DNA from: Zygnema cylindricum
Taxonomy: Eukaryota > Streptophyta > Zygnematophyceae > Zygnematales > Zygnemataceae
Reading direction: 5' to 3'
NCBI GenBank assembly: GCA_037447655.1
Contig: JBBHKE010001237.1
Coordinates: 64,001-95,602, forward strand
Length of the DNA: 31,602 bases
Both the position numbers and the translations under genes were made by a program. Positions 1,437-24,900 of this stretch are shown here, one piece after another. Numbering within the stretch: position 1 is the stretch's first letter; every line of letters begins with the position of its first letter. Below the pieces are notes generated by a model. The model was given only the letters and a program-made list of their open reading frames with translations. It did not search any database and was not told the origin of the DNA.

Positions 1437-3057
1437 TTTCAATTTTAATCCACAGTTTTCTCTGCAATAAATCAACTTAGGGGAAGGCACTAGTTTTGTC
1501 ATCATGTCTGCAATCATTTCTCTATCAATTTTATGAACCAGTTTAATAATTTTATTTTCTACCTTCTCTCTGACAAAGCTTAGTCTAATATCCATTATTC
1601 TTAGCTTTGAAGTGATGTTTCGGATTAGCTGCAATAGAGATAGCAGCTTGATTATCACAAAAAACATTTTGGGTTCCAGACTTCATAAACCCAAGTTCTT
1701 CAAGAAGAGATTTAACCCACATTAATTCTTTGGTGGCAGCACAAGAAGCCATGTATTCAGCCTCCATAGTAGACTGAGAAACTACTTTTTGTTGTTTGCT
1801 ACTCCAACAACATGCACCGGATCCAATTTGCAACACATATCCAGTCGTACACCTCCTTAAAGGCACATCTCTCTAACTAGCATCACTCCAAGTGGTGATG
1901 TCAATGTGCTCCCCTCCCAAATGCAACCATAATTCCCTTGTCCCCACCAGATACCTCATCACCCTTTTGGCAGCCTCCTAGTCTCTCTTTCTTGGTTCAT
2001 TTAGATTTCTACTAAGGACACCTACAGCTGCAGCTATATCCGGACGGGTACAATTCATAAAATAAATTAAACTGCCTACAATCTGCCGATAAGGAATATT
2101 TTCCATAAATTTTCTTTCTATCTCATCCATCTCATCATTAATGATAAATATTCCTCTCTCTTCACTTCCCTCAAACACTTTCTTCAAATCCATAGGAGTA
2201 GTACATCCGTTTGCTTTTTCCATCTGAAATTTTTCTAGCATATTACCGATTGCTTCTTTTTGAGTGAGTCTTATAATTCTATTCCCTCTATCTCTCTCCA
2301 TCTGAATTCCCAAAATGTACTTTGCTTCGCCAAGATCTTTCATATCAAAACTGCTTCTAAGATCCCGTTTTAGTTTGTTAATTTTATCTAAGGACTTGCT
2401 TAAGACCAACAAATCATCCACATAAATAGCAATAAATATCACTCCATTCTCATCCTCAAATAAATATATAGAGTGATCTGAACTAATTTTGATATACCCC
2501 AAATCGGTCAGAAATTCGTCGAGCTTTATATTCCACTCTCGCGGGGCTTGCTTAAGCCCATAGAGTGATTTTATCAATTTGCAAACTTTATTTTCTTCCC
2601 CACTTTTCACGAATCCTTCTGGTTGCCTCATGTAAATTTCTTCTTCCAACTCTCCGTGCAAAAAGGCCGTTTTAATATCCATCTGGTGGATTTCAATATC
2701 CTCCGATGCGGCTATACTTAAAAGGATTCTAACAGAAGGAAATCTGACTACAGGTGCAAAGGTTTCTTCGTAGTCTATCCCCTCTTTTTGAGTATAACCT
2801 TTTGCGACTAACCTAGCTTTGTACCTCTTAATGGTATCATCCGGGTTTAATTTAAGTTTAAAAACCCACTTACATCCAATCGGTTTTCTGTCCAGTGGAC
2901 AATCTATCAACTCCAATGTATTGGCTTCCATGATAGAGGCCATTTCTTCATTTATAGCTGTGATCGACCGGCTACTTTCTGGAGTGTTTATGGCCTCTAA
3001 GTATGTTTGAGGTTCATCTGGGTGAGACTGTTGTCCATAGCCTATTTCAACCATGGA
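1423..3057 (-). pseudogene. Copia pol, reverse transcriptase and RNase H part
   Basis: The open frame from 3,054 to 1,978 gives the copia RT domain: a WVFKLKLN start, [50 protein letters not shown] and the catalytic box YVDDLL. The same frame continues into RNase H after TAG codons at 1,980-1,978 and 1,875-1,873. Both fall where the family normally has Trp (HWEAAKR and SDADWA). RNase H shows STMEAEYMA and FCDNQAAI, then a one-base shift near 1,605-1,620 moves the tail (MDIRLSFVREKV) to another frame. It is inactive unless the stops are suppressed. Confidence 0.93.
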
Positions 3058-3062
3058 TTACT

Positions 3063-4043
3063 CACGGAAACACCCACAGACTACCTCAAAAACAGCTGTG
3101 TTTCAGACGACAGAGATTACTCCACAATAAACAAAATGATCTCAAACTGCACCAATATGTAGTATACCATATACACTGTAAACTCTTAAAGTTACAGCCA
3201 AATCCACCAAGGCATTTAGAAGATATAAGCTTCAGAGTTACCCAAATATAGTTGACAGCTTCACAAACTAACCACTTAGACTGTTCACAGAATCTTACAA
3301 AGATACTAGAATACAATGAAACTTCACACACATATATATTCTATATCATAGAATAACTCCACAAAGTTTCATATGAAAGCACCAATTAGAGTGATCACAC
3401 CAACAAGTCAAAGATGCAGAAAACAGTTTGCCATTACTTTGATTACATGACTGCGATACATAAAATAATCTAAGTCCTGCAAGTTAAACTCAGAGTACAT
3501 AGGCATACCAGCCGTACTGTATCTACTCTAATAAACTAATTAGTCAAAAGGACAAACCTCTGTTGTACATAATATTTACACCGTACTCTTCGTATGTCAG
3601 AAACCAAGCTACCACTAAGCAACTACTAAGCTACCACTACCGTACAATCATCATTACTCGAGATCTATCCTAGTCATATTATCCGCAGCTGCGCTAGATG
3701 CGCTGGCTGCGCTGGCTGCGCTTGTCCGTACGGATCATACAAATAGCCGCAGCTACGTTGACTTAACTGCGTCGCAGCTCCGCAGTACTGGCGGCGCCTA
3801 TTCCAACATTCCGTTTATTTTACATCGGATCGCTTCGCGATCCGCCGTCCATTTGTCACAGCTTGTTCACACCACTCAATGAGTATTTTACGTCACTTTA
3901 ATTATATCAATCCGTTCGCTCCCCCAATCCGTAAATCTATTCAAACCTCCATATTAAATCCAATTAGTAGTTACGGGCAAACTGTCTCGTACGCACGAAA
4001 CTAACTTTTCAAAACAACAGAGACATCTTTGTGAGTTGGTTAT
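3063..4043. mobile_element. About 1-kb insertion inside Copia pol
   Basis: Copia coding stops at 4,044 just after the integrase C-terminal region and resumes at 3,057 just before RT. The intervening bases have no copia similarity. TTACT occurs at both edges (3,058-3,062 and 4,044-4,048); removing one copy plus the insert rejoins the two parts in the same reading frame, so TTACT is a candidate 5-bp target duplication. The rejoined site still has a TAA, which leaves some doubt. The insert has an A/C-rich half and then a GCAGCTGCG-rich block at about 3,690-3,790 resembling 10,440-10,600. No terminal repeats and no coding were seen. Confidence 0.6.
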
Positions 4044-6776
4044 TTACTTGTCGTTCTTAAAGTCGTTTACTACTTCTTCTTCCCCCTTCAAAATCGGACG
4101 CCGGTATGGAAGGCATCCTTGGGTTTCGTTTAGGGAGATTTCAGCTCCCCTATCTTCCAATTCCGGTGTCTCATCAAGTTCCTCATCGGTTTCCACTTCG
4201 TATTGTGGAGTTGCCTTGGATGTTGTCTTTTCCTCCTTCTTCTTTGGTAGATATGCAGATTTTTCTTTTTCTCCCTCTTCCTTCTCTTCATTTTCAAAAT
4301 CAAAGTTAGAAAACTGATCCGTTTCAAATCTAATTTTGACTTCCTTATTATATTTGAATGGATCAATGGACTTCTCTTCATTCATCACCACTATGTGTTT
4401 TACTAAAATTATATCTCTCTTTTTCAAGTCATACACTCGGTATCTTTTTGTGCTCTCATCATATCCTACAAGATATCCTGGCTTCCCTCTCCCCTCTAAC
4501 TTCCATTTAGTCTTATCGGAATCCAAACTATAGACTTGACTTCCGAACACTCTCAAACTAGACATATCAAGCTTTCTTCTTGTCCACCTCTCATACGGAG
4601 TTTCCTCCTTATTTGCTGAAGTTAAGAATCTATTTTTGATGAAATTAGCATAGTTCATAGACTCTGCCCAAAACTGCAACAGTATCCTCTTATCAGTTAA
4701 CATACTTCTGGACATATCTCCTAAAGTTCTATTCACTCTTTCTGCTACTCCATTTTGTTCCTGATTATAGGGAACCGTTTTCTCATGATGAATTCCTTCT
4801 TCTTTAAGATATTCTTCAAATTCCCTTGAGGTGTATTCTTTCCCATTTTCACTTCTTATCTCTTTTATTGAGGTTTCATGTAGTTTTTCACTCCATACTT
4901 TATACTCTTTGAAACATCTTAATACCTCTGACTTATGTCTGAGAAAGTATACCTTCGTGTATCTAGACCAATCATTTGTGATGGTTAACATCCATCTCTT
5001 CCCCCCATGTGAAGCATACCTAGCAGGTCCCCAAACATCAGTGTTAACTAGATCTAATACTTTCTCTCTCCTAAATGTGGTTGCCTTTGGAAATGGAAGT
5101 CTATGAATCTTCCCTTGGGCACATCCACTACAATCATTAAAGGTCTCATTATCCTCAAAAGTAATACCCTCCACTATTCCTTTTTTCTTCATTTTCTTTA
5201 ATCTATCTAGATGCACATGCCCCAACCTTTTATGCCAAAGCATCATCTCACTTGCACACGAGTAGAGAACACTCTTTTCATTGCAAAGAACAATTTTGAA
5301 CATTCCTTGACTGCCCTTCTCAGCTATGAAATAAACCTCATTATCAAAGCTTGCTGTGAAGATTCCTTTCCTAGTTCCTGTTTCAAACTCCTTTTCATCT
5401 AGGACAGCTGTTGAGACTAGGTTTTTGCTAAGCTGTGGAATAGAAAGAACGTCTAAGAGTGTTACAATTGAGGCGTTTCCATCAACTAGAACCTTCAAGT
5501 CAACAGTTCCAAGAAGACTTGTGGTTTCTACTCTACCATCTCCGTACTCTATCTCAACTATTGGGATCTTTCTCAGTTTAGTGAACCACCCCTTATCTTT
5601 GCACATATGCATTGAAGCCCCTGAGTCTATGATCCACCCATCCTCGGGTGGATCGCTCTTACCTCCGAAAGCACACTTTTGTCTCCGTGGAATGTCGACA
5701 TGCTTTTCAGTGTTTTTCGGATTAAGAAGAAGCTCCTCAAGCTCCTCTTCTGGTTCAGTTTTTCCTTCCACTTCCTCATCATGAACTTGAGTCAGGAAAG
5801 CCTTTTTCTTTCCTCCATCCCTTGAGGTTCCTTGACCATCTTTGAGTCGAAGATCTGCAAGTTTGATACAATATGCCATACAGTGTCCCGGTTTCTTGCA
5901 GAAGTGACATAATCCCCCTCGAGAAGTTCCTCTCCCCTGTGTATCAAATCTGCCACCTCCTTGTCCTCTTCCACCAAAGTTTCGATAGGGATCTTTCCCT
6001 CTCTCCTCATCACGCTTCCGCTAATCAGCTCTTGTAGACAATGCTTGAACACTTGGACTCCCTCTCCTAAGCTCTATGGTGCTTTCTTTCACTAAAATCA
6101 TTCCCACTGTGTCATCCCAATTCCAATTGCTATCTCTTATGTCTTGCAATCGGTTAATGATATTCTCATTCTCTTCAGGTAGTTTCATCATTAATGTGTT
6201 CACTCTTTGTCTCTCGGACCATGAGCTACCTGCACTCTCTAACTCTCCAAATAATGATCCTAAATCATTGCAATAATTATTCATACTTCCTCCTTTATAA
6301 GTATAAGTTGCAATCTTATTTTCGGCCAACTGTTGTTGCTGCAATGATCCACTCTTATATTTGTTGACTAGTGATATCCAAATCTGAGATGAAGATTTGA
6401 CATGCATAAGGGGAATGGCAATGCCCTTTGCTACACTTTTAAGAATTAAGAGCTTAGCAACCTTGTCTTTCTAGTTCCACTTTTCATACTCTGATCTTTC
6501 GGTCTGAACCCTTATCGCCGTTTTTGGTGGTGTTGCTGCCGGTATCGCCTTTGGCAATGGTGTCACTTGAGTTGCAACTCTTTCCTTTTCTCCTTCCATG
6601 ACAATCTCCTCTTCTTCCTCATCTTCATCCTCGGTGATGGTGGCAGCTGTTCTACCAACTGTAGAGGCGGAGGTGCCAGAAAAACGTGTCCCTCCAAACC
6701 CAGGTAGAGGTGGGCATCGAATTTGTCCAGACACTATGCCCCCTAGATACTTCTCAAATAGTTTTCCCTCCATCAT
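4044..6776 (-). pseudogene. Copia gag, protease and integrase part
   Basis: One reading frame runs from 6,776 to 4,044 with TAG codons at 6,473-6,471 and 6,023-6,021. In order: an acidic N-terminal region (DEDEEEEE), Gag core, a Gly/Arg-rich stretch, a CCHC zinc knuckle (CHFCKKPGHCMAYC, 5,875-5,920), the aspartic protease motif IIDSGAS, the integrase HHCC zinc site (WHKRLGH to CSGCAQGK), then the integrase core with VNTDVWGP, RSENGKEY and NGVAERVNRT. The second catalytic Asp of the core is Glu here (RSEN instead of RSDN), so this copy is probably integration-dead. The frame ends at a TAA at the edge of the 1-kb insertion. Confidence 0.93.
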
Positions 6777-9959: not shown

Positions 9960-10620
9960 AGTAGCAAAAACACTAACAACTTCCAAAGTTTCAGCTCAAT
10001 TGACTTGACAACACTCAAGATATAATACTCAGAAGTTTCCCAAAAACAGTCTGCAGTTTACTACTTGGAAGTCTGGATACAAAAAACATTCTAAGTCCTA
10101 ACTCTTATACTCTTAGTGAGTATCTACTTTTAGTTGTCCTATTACATAATGTTGCACCGCCGATATAGGTGTTCCTAATAGATATGTCCAAAACACAAAA
10201 CTACCACTGAGATCTACTTACTTCTAATCACGCTAATACTAATTTACCACTCTACAATCACATTACTGAGAATTTGTACTAAATGATTGTACAAATACTC
10301 GCCGCCGGTTAGTTACGTTTGTCCGGATATTTGCACTCAGTCGTTGTAAAGACATCTGTCAGTAAGTCATCTGTGAATCTCGTTCATTGACTCGATTCTG
10401 TTCAACCGTAGCAGCGCAGTCCAGTTCCAGATCATATTCGAATATCCGCAGCTTCGCCACAGCTGCGTTGTCCCATAGCAAAAGTAGCCGCAGCTGCGTT
10501 TGTCTTGTTGCGTAGCAACTGCGTTGGTCCGTACGGACCATATCAAAAATAATCAAAGCTGCGCTTGTTCCATTTGCGTCGCAGCTGCGCTGTTAGAATA
10601 TTGGTGTCGGTACCATTAAA
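9960..10620. repeat. Second copy of the GCAGCTGCG-rich repeat
   Basis: This shares its layout with the Copia insert at 3,063-4,043. An A/C-rich half with the phrase ACCACT...ACAATCA...ATTACT is followed by a block with several CGCAGCTGCG palindromes, a GGTCCGTACGGACC palindrome and GCGTCGCAGCT. The match is partial and ends are not defined. It has no coding potential beyond chance frames. It is probably a non-autonomous mobile element or solo repeat of the same family. Confidence 0.45.
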
Positions 10621-12954: not shown

Positions 12955-14040
12955 AAGTTTATCATGCCCGTACCCCGGACGTACGGCAACGTCACGTTGT
13001 GCCAGCAGTACGGCGGTCTGTAGCGCTGACGCATGGCAACGTCACGTGACGCACGGCAACGTCAGTTGTGCTAGCGGTTCAGCGGTCTGTACTGCTGACG
13101 CACGGCAGCGTCACGTTGTGCCAGCGGTAAGGCGGTCCGTACTGCGGACGATCGCACGACAACGTTACACCGCGAATCCTTATTAGTGTCAAAGTTTAAA
13201 TAGTGTTGAAGGTAACTTACTGTAATTGATGCTAATTAGGAATTTGGTTTTTTTTTTAAAAGGTGTATTTTAATTTCGGCTTAATGCTAATTTGGGAACA
13301 ACAAAAATTAAATATTCTCCGTACGATTGTATACATTAACATATGTATTCGTACAAAATATTAGAAATCGTACGTCGTTGTGAAATTTAATTTTCCGTAC
13401 ATGTCAGACTAATTTACTTGTCAGACTAATTCCGTTTTTTGAGTGCACGTTCCTATGCTTGCGCATCTGATTTAATTCATTTTTTGTAAAATTTTCACTT
13501 TAAAAGGTACATTTATGTACGGTCTGACATCGACCGTACACCACACTATTTAGATCTTATTGTACTTTCATTTTTTACGCTATTCAATACGGTACCTTAA
13601 TTAACGTGAAGGAAAAAATAAAATCATGTATCCTATTTAGGAAAAAAACTCAAAATTTCAGGAACCCAAATTAGATTTATATACTCTAATAACGATTCGC
13701 GGTGTACATTCTGCCAGCGGCACGGCGTCCTTCGACGGTTGGCAACGTTACATTGTGCCAACCGTACACGGTCTACACAACGACGGTTGGCAATAATAGA
13801 TTACGCCATCCGTACGGCGTTCTGCACAGCGACGAACAACAACGTTAAATTACGCCATCCGTGCGGCGGTCTGCACACCGACAACTGGCAATGTAAGATT
13901 ATGCCATCCGTACGGCGGTACGGGCGGTACCGTTACATTGTGCCAACGGTACGGCGGTCCGTACTGCGGACAGACGGAAAAAATTGAAGACAGACACACC
14001 GCCTACCGCCTATATAAGGTTTCGCAGAGGGGCGAACAAC
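12955..14040. repeat. Right arm of inverted GTACGG array
   Basis: Tandem units at 12,960-13,165 and 13,707-14,040 read in the opposite orientation to 1-534, for example GGCAACGTTACATTGTGCC and TTACGCCATCCGTACGGC. The last 70 bases (GGCGGTAGGCGG, TATATAGG and a GCGAACAAC end, read as complement) mirror bases 1-70. MITE B interrupts the array at a TA. The paired arms suggest the terminal inverted repeats of one element of about 14 kb, or two array copies in opposite orientation. Confidence 0.8.
13168..13704. mobile_element. MITE B, CACCGC family, 537 bp
   Basis: Ends CACCGCGAATCCTTATTAG and CTAATAACGATTCGCGGTG, flanked by TA at 13,166-13,167 and 13,705-13,706. Removing the element and one TA restores AACGTTACATTCTGCCAGCGG, which is the array consensus, so the TA duplication is directly visible. 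The interior closely matches MITE E (CCGTACATGTCAGACT, GCGCACGTTCCTATGC-like and TTTATGTACGGT blocks). Confidence 0.85.
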
Positions 14041-15784
14041 GTTCCCTTATTTATATAATGATTCTAAATTAGGTTGCTTCTCCATCAGGCGCCAACGGTA
14101 ATCCTACAAAAACGTTTACTGACACTAATATTTCGTTCACTTCTCCATCAGGTCGTGTCAGCAATGTAATCTATCGCGTGTGATCTTTATTTCGATTGGT
14201 GCACGTAGGTTCCTCTTCTGACAGCAAACATAGTCAAAGATTCCAAAAGCAGAATATATGAACTTGTATCCTTACAGCCAGCCGCAAAATTATATTACAT
14301 GCGTTTACAATTTGTACATTTGTGTTTTGTTTTTTTTGTCGTTGTTTTGTCGTTCGTGCTTCGTCGTGGCGCCGCAAATTCCGAGTGTCAACGGATGGTG
14401 GAGGAGGCGTCACGGCACATTCTTCGACAAACACTTTCTCGGTGTTTTCGTTGGATTTGATTCTCGCTTGTTCGAAGGCGCGTGGCAAATGTTCGAAGGC
14501 GCGTGGTTTCGTAGTGACCTTTCCACGCGTAAATATTTTACCTGTCCGGTGATTGGCTAGTGTCCTCCGTGAGGAGAGTAGCCAATCACTAGACGGAGTG
14601 ACCTTTTGCTTCGAAAATTTATAATCGGGCGGTCGACGTTGTCGCCCAAAAGTTTGGAGAATCTTGACGAATCTCCATTAATCATGTTTTATAAGGGTGG
14701 ACTTCTATTAGGCGTCTCAATAATTGTACGGAAAATTTTACTGAAAGGCGTGCCTTCCATTAAGTCGCGACAGTAAACCACTTTTTATTTGCGTGGCTCA
14801 TTCTGGTTGATAACACGTAGGTTAATATTAGATGCTTAAATCTTGAAAGAATCTTAGAATGCAAAGTTTGAACGCAATATTTGTACGAGGGAAGGTAATA
14901 TTTGTACCGTCGGAGGTAATTAATGACTCGTACACAGGGCATTAAATGTACTACCCAAACTTTCAAAACGCAACGACAAAAAGGCGGAGGCAAACTTGAT
15001 GGTGGGAGTGTGACGGGAGAGTTTCGCCAGATTCGCAGCCACCCTGGCGGAAGGCATATGGCCCTTGCGACGTGTAAGCAAATATGCGCGTGCTCCTCGT
15101 GGATTTTTTTTTTCCTTTTCCACGCGACCTATTTTTACACGTTCTGTATTCGAGAACTGTCCTCCCTGTGCACGGTCTTAACAAACTGTAGGGTTGGTGA
15201 CGTGGCGTCACGGATAAAAAGTGTAATTGAATCCGACGGTCCTAATTTACGCATACAACCCTAAACAATTTTCTGTAATGTTGGTTTCGTTGAAAAAAAA
15301 ATATTATGTACGAACCTGTACGGCCTTCAGTAAAAAACCCCACTTTTTCGCTAGTGGAAGTCCACCCTAAAAAAAAAAACAGTACGAAAATGAGCTGGAT
15401 GTGTACGAAAATGTACTTTTTCCAATAAACAACCCCACTTTTCGCCTGATGGAGGTTCACCCTTATCTGTACTCCAATTACTGCCACCCGGTTCTTCCGG
15501 TTATCCGTTACTTTGGCCTCGTGTCCATAGGAAACGACAACCGTCCATCATAGAGTAGAACGATTTTGACCGCCGGAAAAATGTTGAACCCTAATATCAA
15601 CAGGTACAGTAGCGCTGTTGTTCAAAGCGTTCGATTTTTTCCTTTTTCCCGATTTCTATGTATAATTCGTGACACTTGAAAAAATCGCAAAAAAACGCCG
15701 AGTACTTTCTTTCCGGTAAATTGTACGAGAAATTTACGGTATATGTACGGAATTTGACAAAAAGATACGCTGCACTTAATAGTA
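14041..15784. other. No gene recognised; hairpin and short repeats
   Basis: Between the right array arm and MITE C no conserved protein is seen. The sequence holds a direct repeat TTCGAAGGCGCGTGG at about 14,471-14,505, the CCAAT hairpin at 14,549-14,589, and two copies of a CCCCACTTTT-TTCACCCT-like phrase near 15,335 and 15,430. Open frames are short and overlap in several phases, typical of non-coding DNA. Confidence 0.5.
14549..14589. other. Hairpin with paired CCAAT boxes
   Basis: GTGATTGGCTA and TAGCCAATCAC form a perfect 11-bp stem around a 19-base loop that itself contains TCCTC and GAGGA. Each arm carries a CCAAT core, so it could be a paired NF-Y-type site. No adjacent gene is apparent, so function is unknown. 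Confidence 0.5.
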
Positions 15785-17302: not shown

Positions 17303-18731
17303 TTGCTGCGAGTTGCTTCGGGCAGATTATTTTTATGAAAATTCCCCCAGGGCTCCGAAATGTCTTCTGAAAATGAAATGTCCTTAAATCACCAGACATC
17401 CTCCAAAGCTTGACCGAACGATGACCAACAGCTAAGCGAGAATGAGCCTAGTGAGAAAAAGAGCTCGAGAACATAGAAAATTACAACTGACCATACCTAT
17501 ACCAAGTCCTACTTCTCTCCTCCAATTGAAGATCAGACGTTGAGATTTTTCACACCAACTTTCCCACAAGTAACAACTGCAACTTACCAGTTACAATTAA
17601 CAACTGCAACTTACCAGTTACAATTAACAACTGCAACTTACCAGTTACAATTAACAACTGCAACTTACCAGTTACAAGCAACAACTGCAGCTTACCGTGT
17701 TGTAATCTGACGAGATTATTGTAATGTAGTTTCCAAATTCAGTGGACCAATGTTAATGCAAGGAACTGAATTTTAGAGCGCTCTACGAAGGGCAAACGGA
17801 ATGAGGCGCTATGGAAAGAGCAAGGGGATTATCAGCAGTTGTACAGTAAGATTTATAAGGATTATTGGATGTTTGGCTTAAAAGTTTATAATTTTTTTTA
17901 TCTGCGGTTATTGATTGCAGTGAACAATGTACTTTCTCCATAAGTAGTCGTATTTGGTAGCTTAGCGGAGCTAATCAGCATTGTGGCCTTTTTCATGCAA
18001 ATCATTGAGACCTTTTTCACTGATGATTAAGATCATTGATTGAATGTATCTTCTCAGTTCCCTCAAGGCCTTTGCATACATGAGCTTCACATGCCTAGTT
18101 GGCTTTTTGTAGTCTTTCCCTTAGTTGACATATCTGTCTTTATTCTGAGTCTTTATATGTTTGCGCTCTTGTTTGGTAGTCTAACTTCTCCATGAATGTG
18201 CCTAGTCAATATGTCACGATCCGGAATGGAGTAAAGAAACATTCTCTCTACATAGCATGGACATATATTATCTATGTTAAATAGTTCATTTCAAAATTGC
18301 ATGTGCCAAGGATAGTTGTGTGCCATTGGTGCGTCTGTTTACAATCACGAACATAGTGAAGTTATATTAGTCATTAATGCGCCGTGTTGGAAAATGTGGA
18401 GCAATGTGGAGCTATGTGGTTAAGAAGTCACATATAGTGACTATTGCAACTCTTGCAACTCCAGGGTTAATGCTGGACTAATATGGTCGAACAACATTCC
18501 AGGTTGTATTTTTCTTATTCATTCCTCATTATGAAACCGTTTTTTTCACTGGACATTGCATCGTGCTGATTAGTGAGGCAAGCTTCACATTTTGACCTGC
18601 ACAGATATAGCACTGTGGGCTGAGCAACTTGCTCACAACTTGCAGTGTGGGCAGGAGAGGTATTCTTAATGGGACGGGATTTGGCCAGTAATTATTGTGC
18701 CTGCAGACTGGTTCTTATACACTGCACAAGC
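17303..18731. promoter_or_regulatory. Presumed upstream region of INDH
   Basis: No conserved protein is visible between MITE D and the first INDH exon. The stretch contains the 27-bp minisatellite at 17,571-17,697 and poly(T) tracts. It should hold the INDH promoter and 5' leader, or possibly an untranslated first exon. No convincing TATA box could be tied to a start site. Confidence 0.4.
17571..17697. repeat. 27-bp minisatellite with MYB-like cores
   Basis: Four close copies plus a degenerate fifth of a 27-bp unit start at 17,571, 17,598, 17,625, 17,652 and 17,679. Each copy contains TTACCAGTTACAA and AACAACTGC, i.e. a CAGTTA core and a CAACTG core of the type bound by R2R3-MYB factors. It lies about 1 kb upstream of the proposed INDH start. 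Confidence 0.9.
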
Positions 18732-18909
18732 ATGCAGGAATTTTTAAGGCGAACTGGCAGAGGGTTTACTACATCCCATACAAGCTCTGTCCATCCGGGT
18801 GTACGACGGCAAGTGGGAGTACCTGTAGAACGATTAGCGTTGGAGAATGTTGCTCACATTATTGCTGTTGCTTCAGGGAAGGGAGGAGTTGGCAAATCCA
18901 CTACCGCTG
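18732..18909 (+). CDS. INDH: INDH exon 1
   Basis: Encodes the presumed presequence and the P-loop, ending in STTA plus the first base of a Val codon. The donor is CTG|GTGAGA. The true 5' limit is uncertain because possible acceptors (CTGCAG) lie just upstream. Confidence 0.88.
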
Positions 18910-21900
18910 GTGAGAGAGCCATCCACTTGGAGGACGGAAAACATGAGTGGAGAAGTAGACTTTGTTCCGGAGAGTTTCATGAATGATTTTAATATGTCTA
19001 GAAAGTACTTTCTTGTTAGCAATTGGAGTTTGAATGCATGTCATGTACAGGTCATCATAATTTTGAGAAAAGTCATCAACTGTACAGCTGTTAAAGGCAG
19101 CAAACAAAGAGAAAGAAAGAAAAAAAAAAAAGGGGTAGGGAAGGGGTAGGGGGGAGGACCATCACCTTTTATTTCGGTTTTTCCTAAACCTGAGTCTACA
19201 TTTAAATCTTGTCTAATTGAACCTATTGTAGACTTAAAGCCCAAAAAATCTAATTTTGTACCTATTAATTTAGCAAGATTTGTTATAAATCCAAACTTAG
19301 GGTTTTCTATAGGCTGAGTTATAATTTCAATTAAACCTATACCTTGTCCCACATGCCATTTTTTTTTGAATTTCCATGAATCCTGCTGCAAATTAATATA
19401 AGGCAATTTTACATTAATTCAGATAAATTTATATTTCCGTTTACACCAATTATAGAAGTTCGTTGAAAACCTGACGTAAGGGATCCGTCTAATATATATT
19501 TTCTCATAAACTCTAAACTCTGTAGAATTTTGTAATCAAAACTTTTAGCAGCTATAACTGCCTTTTTAACAAGTTTTAAATTTTATTTAGGGATAGTCTG
19601 ATCTAATTCATATTTACAATTTTTTGGGCTGTACTTATAAGTATGATCTCGGTAAATCTTAGAATTTAAAGCTATAGGTAAACTTATAGTTTTTAATAAA
19701 GTCTTATTGGAAAAAGTGTGCTTACAAGCACAAAAAAGTTTCTGGTTACTGATTTGCTTATGAATTTCTAGCCCTACTTTCATATTAAACCTAATATTAT
19801 TTTTACAATTACAGATTCTAGATTTGTATTTAAAATTTTAGTATTATGATTTCTGTTACTTAAATAAGTTTGATTACTAACAGGTCCAAACATGCACCTT
19901 GTAGTTAAGTATAGTTTTAAGTTTAAGGATCTTAAGTTTTTTATTTAGTAATTTGGTAAATTTCCAAGTCCAGAACCCATTAAAACTAATTTGTAGTGTA
20001 CTAAAGTTTTTAAAATATCTAGATTAAAATTAGGCAAAACTGTAATAACCATTAAATTTTGTAAATTTGTTTTAATTTGATCAAAATTTATAGATTTAGT
20101 AATTTTGGAATTAATATTTTTTAATTTTATTAACTTTTTTGAAATATAACTCAAAGTATACTGTGATTTAAAAGTATCTCTTGCATAGCTGTCAGTTTTA
20201 TACATTAAAAAGGGATAATTTAAATTAAATTTTCTATGTTCAGAATAACTTTATACCAAAACTTTCTTAGGTAATTTATTACAAAAAGTTACTGCAGATT
20301 TTATTAATTTATAATACTCACTACCCGGTCTATATGGAGATTTTTGAGAACCTATAAAGATTATAGGTTTTGTGGGTTTTATAGTATAGTTTATAAAATA
20401 GCTTGAAAATATTAAATTATCAGTACCATGTAAAACTATAATCGCTTTGCTAGGACCTTGATTCAAAAGGTTTATTAAATTATAAAGCTTCTGTAAATGT
20501 CTCAATTCTAAACCCTGACTTAAAATATTATAAGGATTATAATATGCAAATTTTAAATTTAAAGTTTTTAAGCATATCTCTAAATCATTGGGTATATAAT
20601 CTGAATTTAAATATTTTAAAATATAAAAAAGAAAAAGAAAATAAAAAATAAAGAAGAGGGGGGTTTAGTAGCAGGAAAACAAGTGAAACAGTTTTTAACA
20701 TTAGCAGGAATAGATTCTGTATGGGTTAGAATCTCAGGATCAAAAAACCCTATAAATTATATAACAGGTATACTTGAAATTTTAAAAAGCTTTAGAATAT
20801 GTACGGAATAATATTATTGAGAAGCCAAATTAGTATGCCCAAAAAATTAAAAGCTATTTGTGCAAGTTTAAAACTAAAAAGAAGAAATTCCAGGAAATAA
20901 GTCAAGCAGTAGCATACAGATTAAATAGATACGCAATTTGGGGTATTTTAAAAAACCCACTTATTCCAGATAAATTAAATTTACATCCTATAAGAGGTGG
21001 ATTTAAACATATAGAAAGCTCGGATTTATAGATAATTCTGAACAGATTTTTAATAGAATGCAAAAAAATGAATAAACATAGAAAATTAAGAGGTTCTAAT
21101 ACTTATGGAAGAGGTCACAAAAAACATAAATCCGGATCAAAAAGAGGAACTGGAAGAGCAGGTATAGAAGATCACAAAAAATTTAAAAAATTTCCAATAA
21201 GTAAAACAAAAAAACTTAGGTATATCCAATTCACAGAGCTAATTAGCAAGTTTGATACATTCTTGAATAAATCTATATTTTATAAATCTGAATCAAACCA
21301 GTATGTTATTGATTTATGTAAACTAAAAAGAAAAATATTAGGTCCAAAAGATTGTAAAACTTATTATTTATTTTTTAAGCGTAAATTCAAATGAACTTAA
21401 GAGCTACCAACAAGTATAGGAAATATATTTACTCTAATCCTATTCAGTATTTAGAATATGCTCCAGATTTAGAAAAACCCAAGATAAAACTAAGTGATAG
21501 AAAAAAAAAAATTACGCAATTATAAACTTAGGGTTTTATATCTTAATTACTAGCATTCCTACAATAGTAGTAAGTCAAGAATCTACATTTAAATTTAATA
21601 TTTAAAAAACAGAAAATAATTCCTTAGGTGTATTAAGAAGAAGTGCAAGATTTACTGCAGATCTAGCAAGTCTTATGATATTTAAGCTTAATATAATCAA
21701 TTTTAGTCTAGGGTTAAGAAACCAAAAATTATAGGCAGAAAATATCTAATTCTTTAGCATTTATGATTTTATTAGCTCAGTCTTATACAAAAACTGCAGA
21801 GATTTTTAGAAGAACTGATTACTGGTTAGTAGCTAGTAATGCTTTTTGATTTAAAATTTCTGTGTATTTTCAATTATTATTAGGTGGTGTTTCTGTAATT

Positions 21901-24900
21901 TTATTACAATCTATAGGCTAACTATTATAGTTTCTCTAGTGTATCAGGTTTGTATATTTTAGTAGATTTTTCTAGAAGTCTTAAAGAACTGGTTTAAAAA
22001 TATAGGATTTTATCAAATTGAACAAAATTTCAATTATAAAATTTCCTTAATTTATTTTGTCAGTATAGTCAGTTTAATAATTTATTTTTACCAGAAATCT
22101 ACACAAATTAAAATAGTACATCAAAACGTAAGAGGTGTACACGACTACATTCCTTTAAAATATATTTATTGCGAATCCCATCCTTTATTTTTGATGTCTT
22201 ATTTAAAAGACATAATTAACAGAATTATAACTTTTTGCAGGTTTGCTTTTAATGTAGATTTCCCTGCTAATTTTTTTAAATTTCTACAGAGTCACGCTCC
22301 TTTTTATGTGCTTTATATAAATAAGGATTTTTATGTTTTATTGGCTGAGATAATCTATTTGATAATAGGAGTTTATGTTATGTCTTACGCTTGGTTTAAT
22401 TTAACTGGATTAGGTAGTCCTGAAGGTTTAGCTCAGAAAAAGGGGACCCACCCAGGGGGGGGTGGGTTTTTTTTTTTTTTTTTGGCATTTGTTGTACTGT
22501 TGCACTAAGTGTTTGTCCTGCGAGCCAGGCAGACAGCATGGACGTATTCTTGGCTGACTGTTTGGATGTTCGAGTGGTTGTTTTCAGCATATCCTTGGAT
22601 TCTTCAACAAATAACTGAGGAATTTTCAGCATATATAGTTCGTCAAACAGTCCACTTACAAAATCCTTTAACACCTTTACTCTATAAAGGTGGCACTACC
22701 ATTGAGGCAAGCTTTACGGCTGTTGGTTATTGAATCTCCTCCTGATTTCCTGTCGTTTGCGTGTTAGCAGTGAATCTGGCAGTGGCCATGGCACGAGACT
22801 CTGGATTACGAGTTGGATTGTTGGATAGCGATGTGTATGGACCTTCCATCCCTCGGCTAATGAATTTGGAAGGCAAGCCGCAGGTGAATGCAGGTCTGCA
22901 TAGTTCCCTGGAATGTTCCTTTGTGAGCGTGAAAGCTTGAATTTGTTGGGGAAATATTAGTTTTTGTTCGGTCATGAGCAAAGGGTTTAAAAGTTTTGTG
23001 AGCTGACACTTTGAAAGCTGTTAGGCTGGGTTTTTCTTTAGTGCTGTTTCAAATATCCTTTTGAACTTGGAGTGCCTGATTACAGTTATTTTGGCCGATC
23101 GTGTCGTCTGTTGTCTCTGGCGCTTCTTGGGGATTTCTTACTATGCAGTTTCTCACCAGTCTACAGACATCGTTTTCTCTTTTTTGCGAGCTACAGATCC
23201 TGATGTTGTTATTTGTAATCTATTGCGCTATTGTTTCACGCTGTTTATCTTGCATGTTGTAGGATGAGGCTATCAGGCGGTTATTAACATTTGTGCCAAA
23301 GATGTTGCTGTCGCTGTTCTATGTATGTCTTTATCGCAGAACGCAAAATGATTCCTTTGGAGAATTATGGTGTGCGCTGCATGTCAATGGGCTTTCTTAT
23401 GGACCATGGAGCACCAGCAGTATGGCGTGGTCAGATGGTAAGTTTATTTTCACAATAGCTACACAGAAAATTATTTCATGAAAGCTACAATAAAAACGTT
23501 TTCTCAAAAACTACACTATCATTCTGCAGCTCGATTGTGCTATGCATTTTCTGGTTTTTCTTTTTCTCTCCTTCCACCTCCTGCGTGTTGCTCCTTTCCT
23601 CCCGCTTCCCAACTCCCTCCTACCTCCTGTGTTTGCAATAACTCTCCCCTTTGTAAATAGCATGGCTCTTGCAATGCCTGCATTTGTTGCTCTTTCTAAA
23701 ACTGCTGTTTTAGATCTGTTGACGAGGGCTTTTAGGGAGGATCAGACTACGGTGCATCGACATGATATGCCGATATCACAATAATAATCATCACTTAACT
23801 TTCAAATGGCAATACCTCAACTTTGACATTTTACTAGGTCTTTACAATCAGAGTGTAGGAAGACCTGATTCTTTGTTCAGAGGAGTATTTTAGAGCATCG
23901 AAGCATTTATCAGATTGTCAATTCAGTAGGGAAATAGCTGGTATCAAACATACAAGTCCCATGACTTTCCATCCACTAAAATCATGTTTATCCGAATATG
24001 TTGTAATTGTGATAACAAAAACGGGTAGTTATTGATTCTTTTTCCCGATGTATACTGATATCAAAACTGGTCGACATCGACAAGCCCCTGATAAACTTCA
24101 CGAGGAAAATGACTGATGTTGAAGTTGTGATATGAAAGCTAAGTATTGCTGTATATTTACGAGATTATGAGGAGGGCAATGGGCTATGTCCTAAGTAAGA
24201 GTATGGCGCCTATGAAGGGGCTGCGGAAAAAAAGCTCATCACCTGACCAATCACTTTGAGAAGTGGTTTGCTTGGCTATCATGTTATCAAAACTTTCTCG
24301 AGCTTCAACTGTTCGATTTATTTCTGTTTCATTCTATTTTCAACACTCAAAGTCTGTTAATGTACACTCAGTTGGCCAAGGATATGCTGTGAAATCCATT
24401 GACTTTGGTGGATGCGGAAAGAGGATGTTCATGCTTCAGTTATCGATTTCCAGGTTGACTTACGTGTATCAAGGCATTGTATAACTTATTCAGGACCAGG
24501 CAACATTCTCTTTCTAGAATTACTGAGAGATTCTTTCTCGGCGTTTATTAAGTTTTTATTTTGTTTGTTGTTTTTCTGATTTTAGTGCTATCCTAGTCAA
24601 TTTGCAATCGAAGCTATAGTGAACCCATTCAATCCATCAAGCATGAATTCATGCAAACATGAAACATTCTAAGAAGTGTACTTGCTTGGACATCCTAGGG
24701 CAACTTTCCATTTTAAAAGAAGCTGGATACCAAATCAAATTTAATGATGCTCTTGTCGGTGTTTGTAATAGAAGTAAAACTGGGGGTACATTTTTTCACT
24801 TCACCAAATCCATGCATTGGAACTCGTTTTTGTGTAGTTCATATGTTTGGATCACCATTACAATTTTTGGTGTGTCATTTTGACTTCTACGCGCTAATTA

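Follow-up and report, generated by a model that had tools for sequence, protein, structure and literature searches.

Fragments of archaeal operons in a nuclear NUBPL intron of Zygnema cylindricum, a probable NUMT-like insertion

Introduction

Mitochondria, plastids and bacterial symbionts are well known to have left fossils in nuclear genomes. NUMTs and NUPTs are nuclear copies of organelle DNA, and single archaeal genes have been gained by eukaryotes such as Galdieria. A strongly reduced archaeon, Candidatus Sukunaarchaeum (238 kb, 189 genes), was found with a dinoflagellate (PMC12736012). Searches of an open-licence library brought up no account of nuclear DNA that carries fragments of archaeal operons, nor of other nuclear fossils of an archaeal associate.

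We analysed a stretch of 31,602 nt from Zygnema cylindricum (GCA_037447655.1, JBBHKE010001237.1:64,001-95,602, forward strand), here called the window, and searched the assembly to which it belongs (352.8 Mb, 2,689 contigs).

Results

The window contains an insert of ~3.3 kb (19,160-22,443; 3,284 bp) with 22-28% GC as against ~43-44% in the flanks; the GC profile drops over 19,200-22,500 and then recovers. Read in six frames, the insert carries gatE and gatD on the minus strand and S5, L30, L15 and secY on the plus strand. The features of the locus, with the evidence for each, are:

18721..18909, plus strand: NUBPL/INDH exon with P-loop (KGGVGKST), 5' coordinate nominal (Pfam PF10609, in-frame splice)
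18910..22770, plus strand: host intron, GT...AG, 3,861 bp (sequence, splice test)
19109..19159, no strand: left border tract, an A-run followed by a G-rich purine tract (sequence)
19160..19783, minus strand: archaeal gatE fragment, N-terminal third, broken by one TAA and one frame change (tblastn, NF003107, 2d6f_C)
19780..20618, minus strand: archaeal gatD fragment with two in-frame TAA, lacking the N-terminus (NF003217, Pfam Asparaginase)
20619..20655, no strand: seam of two archaeal fragments, A/G-rich filler (sequence, reading frames)
20656..20808, plus strand: archaeal S5 (uS5), C-terminal piece (Pfam PF03719, 1.3e-9)
20811..21028, plus strand: weak L30 (uL30) remnant in two frames, placed by position (tblastn 20811-20891, 22.7 bits)
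21068..21394, plus strand: archaeal L15 (uL15), open frame of 108 codons (Woesearchaeota L15, solved uL15)
21391..22441, plus strand: archaeal secY, broken in several frames and cut off at the right border (NF006341, frame pieces)
22442..22484, no strand: right border tract, G/C-rich and then a T-run (sequence)
22771..22886, plus strand: next NUBPL exon, with a run of 28 residues (splice test)

The first-pass annotation had claimed that the INDH exons splice cleanly across the segment, and they do. The exon end at 18,909 joins the exon start at 22,771 in frame across a canonical GT-AG intron, and NUBPL is recognized on both sides by PF10609, at 1.5e-5 on 18645-18908 (slightly below the cut-off) and at 1.1e-14 on the downstream exon side. 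Without the insert the intron would measure ~0.55 kb. The A8..G4 pattern has a single match in the 31.6-kb window, at 19,120-19,135 within the left border tract, and an A-run with a G-rich tract also occurs once in the stretch L006 (4009-4036) among 16 stretches scanned (144.6 kb). Because plain purine tracts are also present elsewhere, the filler chemistry is taken as no more than a lead. Elsewhere in the window lie a Ty1/copia-type element on the minus strand (1978-6052; integrase and RVT_2 in interrupted frames) and tandem repeats of 49 and 97 bp (216-534 and 13733-13919) that have an alike unit and stand 13 kb apart.

The minus-strand genes are best matched by archaeal families. GatE, aligned by tblastn in two segments (19792-19424 and 19412-19164), scores 4.5e-31 with the archaeal equivalog NF003107 as against 5.4e-14 with bacterial/organellar GatB (NCBIfam), and it matches the solved archaeal GatE chains 2d6f_C (4.2e-15, or ~4e-15) and 1zq1_C (2e-13). 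GatD matches Pfam Asparaginase at 7.8e-15 and, among NCBIfam models, scores highest with the archaeal GatD equivalog NF003217 (7.4e-25), above type I asparaginase (5e-21) and the other asparaginase-like models. The gatD stop and the gatE start share ATGA (19,783-19,780), an operon-style overlap of 4 bp; gatD likewise overlaps gatE on one strand, in the order seen in the window, at a Woesearchaeota locus (L016).

The plus-strand genes S5, L30, L15 and secY stand on one strand in the order of the end of the archaeal spc operon, with L30 the weak member, and the four are consecutive in another Woesearchaeota locus (L110) of the same genome as L016. The S5 piece is 36% identical to Woesearchaeota S5 (E 1e-7); its best NCBIfam match is the bacterial S5 model (2.6e-6), marginally ahead of the archaeal one (6.7e-6). 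L15 is 35% identical to one Woesearchaeota L15 (E 7e-8, a single pair) and scores 8.3e-4 against solved archaeal uL15; no match to L15 was found in Pfam or NCBIfam. SecY scores 6.3e-11 with NCBIfam NF006341 and 4.3e-6 with Pfam, the latter under Pfam's curated cut-off. The L15 stop and the secY start share ATGA (21,391-21,394), again a 4-bp overlap of operon style. The C-terminal piece of L30 gave a BLASTP E of 3, and position together with an 11-residue motif weakly suggests its identity.

Pairwise tblastn with one Woesearchaeota protein set was compared with 200 dinucleotide shuffles of the insert. Six archaeal genes had been claimed; five stand above 200/200 shuffles (bits in the insert and in the best shuffle: GatE 73.9/24.3, GatD 53.9/24.3, L15 42.7/22.7, S5 33.5/21.2, SecY 32.0/28.9), and the sixth, L30, at 22.7 bits against a shuffle best of 29.3, does no better than shuffled sequence. 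All NCBIfam scores of the insert genes lie under the curated cut-offs, as those of fragments would. A tblastx comparison of 113 archaeal loci with 131 kb (the window and ten host regions) gave a convincing match only at 19,164-20,532. Five further matches in the window, each to a single locus (4878-4949, 5193-5318, 5906-6064, 10002-10079 and 15381-15461), span 24-53 residues at listed E values from 5e-13 to 1e-5 and were taken as probable artefacts of linked-hit statistics.

A purine-rich seam (~20,620-20,655) cuts off both GatD and S5, which lack their N-termini, and the gatD-gatE and S5-secY groups face each other head to head. Since this one seam truncates both genes, two fragments were joined here into a mosaic, and the reading as a single, continuous archaeal operon region was rejected.

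Used as a DNA probe of the assembly, the insert matched three further places, on the scaffolds C1264, C1851 and C2002; it is not the sole archaeal piece. C1264 holds an L15-secY piece (82% over ~494 bp) whose L15 contains stops and which ends in host-like purine repeats, with ~4.5 kb of N beginning ~100 bp past it. C1851 and C2002 each hold a GatD piece (72% over the GatD motif VLHGTDN...GSQKS) with a common 14-bp deletion that breaks the frame. These two GatD pieces differ at 26/142 sites, distributed over codon positions 1, 2 and 3 as 10/47, 11/48 and 5/47, with no third-position excess, and the host blocks around them are 78-89% alike, forming a duplicated block. This pattern marks the piece as a nuclear pseudogene of long standing.

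Codon positions were also compared with the window. Differences between the window and C1264 number 23/164, 21/164 and 35/166 at positions 1, 2 and 3 (p 0.037, two-sided), a third-position excess hinting weakly that some of the divergence may date from living archaea, and hence that there may have been two transfers. The window GatD shows no such excess relative to C2002 (8/50, 13/51 and 13/50) or to C1851 (11/48, 8/48 and 10/47). Because the stretches L005, L006 and L007 gave no tblastx match to the 113 archaeal loci, their archaeal identity derives from similarity to the window alone. On the minus strand of L007, an AT-rich open frame of 90 codons (4604-4873) with only chance-level Pfam matches lies beside the GatD piece and may be another archaeal gene, and a stretch that, read by eye, resembles a kinesin motor (4148-4474; AYGQTG) adjoins the archaeal piece.

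These pieces bear on whether the contig is an assembly chimera, in which the assembler placed sequence from a contaminating archaeon inside the intron. The low-complexity tracts at both borders and at the seam are places where misjoins happen, and the N stretch adjoins the C1264 piece. Stops and frame changes interrupt the genes of the insert, however, and related pieces 18-28% divergent from it occur on the three other scaffolds, two of these pieces sharing a deletion and lying inside a host block that has been duplicated. Nor was an intact archaeal GatD or GatE found in the assembly, though contaminant contigs might have been removed before release: full-length GatE from L016 matched the window as its sole match, and a GatD query matched the window and C2002. 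We regard a chimera as improbable. Integration into the nuclear genome, which the first-pass annotation had proposed, is upheld by the canonical intron on both sides, the decayed frames, the related pieces at three places and the duplicated block with its common deletion. The idea that the host gained working archaeal genes by horizontal transfer would draw on the open L15 frame of 108 codons, but the remaining genes are interrupted or cut short, the C1264 copy of L15 is itself broken, and an isolated archaeal L15 would presumably be of no use in a eukaryotic cell; we give this reading almost no weight.

The PolD N-terminal domain was not found in the assembly, and archaeal 16S was not seen, the model having matched only host 18S and fragments (a weak search, with 5/2,974 candidates scored). 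Group I introns in 18S are typical of Zygnematophyceae, and one lies at the 3' end of the host 18S gene (C1233; L010 3293-3671). Degenerate, interrupted 18S copies, best matched by the eukaryotic model, lie on four other contigs (L011, L012/L013, L014 and L015).

An alignment-based search of genome contigs with GatE gave at least 588 stretches that matched the patterns and at least 508 relatives, of which the best 80 were kept; all 80 have archaeal record titles, with 29-36% identity in the best segment. With the archaeal equivalogs as best matches of GatD and GatE and gene orders equal to those of Woesearchaeota, the archaeal origin first proposed for the segment holds. The source is a divergent archaeon, to judge from these sequences about equally far from the best 80 archaeal GatE. 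In the GatE tree (81 rows) the end branch leading to the window row measures 7.98 changes per column, partly also due to pseudogene decay, which adds branch length, and the row falls in no supported group. Its nearest rows by path are two Woesearchaeota (support 43), and a constraint holding it with 9 DPANN rows was not rejected (p-AU 0.52), at most a hint of a DPANN-like source. Plain GatE identity places Thermococci (38.1%) and Woesearchaeota (38.9%) about equally near, and GatE was matched in 354/371 genomes of the phylum of Woesearchaeota (best 1.5e-24, 41%). Close relatives were not found among public proteins, where GatD had 1 match at 26%, SecY 0 of 1,592 candidates and L15 0 of 2, and the GatE fragment alone, searched against genome contigs, gave 55 pattern matches and 0 relatives. 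Entry by a giant virus or other mobile element is exceedingly unlikely: the GatE alignment gave 73 pattern matches and 0 relatives in one collection of viral contigs, and both the operon overlaps and the order of the ribosomal genes are of a cellular kind.

Discussion

The locus has host DNA on both sides, decayed genes and related copies at several loci, and we consider it highly probable, judging from the sequences, that it represents genuine integration, as NUMT-like non-functional insertions, of DNA from an unsampled archaeon. Two fragments, gatD-gatE and the S5-L30-L15-secY part of a ribosomal operon, would have come from an archaeal genome that was AT-rich and evolved fast; short purine-rich filler would have linked them head to head, and the product would have been captured in the nuclear NUBPL intron. 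With the splice sites intact the insertion would have been tolerated, and decay of the archaeal genes would have followed. The same archaeal lineage would have contributed further, independent pieces to other scaffolds, one of these pieces being later duplicated with its surroundings. The likely route resembles that of NUMTs, in which foreign DNA in the cell serves as filler when a chromosome break is repaired by end joining; such capture would explain the mosaic, the filler, the intron location and the decay.

The source was perhaps a symbiont. A free-living or ingested archaeon is a real but less favoured alternative, consistent with the failure to find archaeal rRNA or intact archaeal genes in the assembly and with the lack of any sign of an intracellular archaeon; the low GC, the long GatE branch (7.98) and the recurrence of pieces nevertheless fit a reduced, host-bound lineage better. 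A symbiotic source is thus probably the likelier. More tentatively, a zygnematophycean alga or its ancestors may for a long time have carried within their cells an extremely reduced archaeon from a deep lineage not yet sampled, and this archaeon would have shed DNA into the nucleus repeatedly and left scores of insertions; if so, this would be the archaeal counterpart of organelle-to-nucleus transfer. The other known pieces amount to ~20% of the window's archaeal DNA (494 + 165 of 3,284 bp); if that 20% held throughout, a source genome of 0.24-1 Mb would have left ~50-200 kb of dispersed archaeal DNA, an extrapolation from two events under which tens of insertions would be expected in the assembly.

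Should reads confirm the borders, the locus would show at the molecular level that a photosynthetic lineage of eukaryotes and an archaeon were in lasting contact, and gatE, L15 and secY would serve as probes for a living archaeon of this kind. It also bears on how archaeal DNA enters eukaryotic genomes.

Among known systems, NUMTs and NUPTs are alike in being non-coding, decaying, multi-fragment insertions with filler in introns or intergenic DNA, but their source is an organelle, whereas here it is an archaeon. Wolbachia-type bacterial insertions are also fragments of a symbiont genome, mostly dead, within a nuclear genome; here the source is archaeal, and no source genome was found for it. 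The archaeal genes of the Galdieria type share the direction of transfer, from archaea to eukaryotes, but are single working genes, unlike the broken operon fragments described here. Sukunaarchaeum, likened by description only, offers the parallel of a reduced archaeon with a unicellular, alga-like host.
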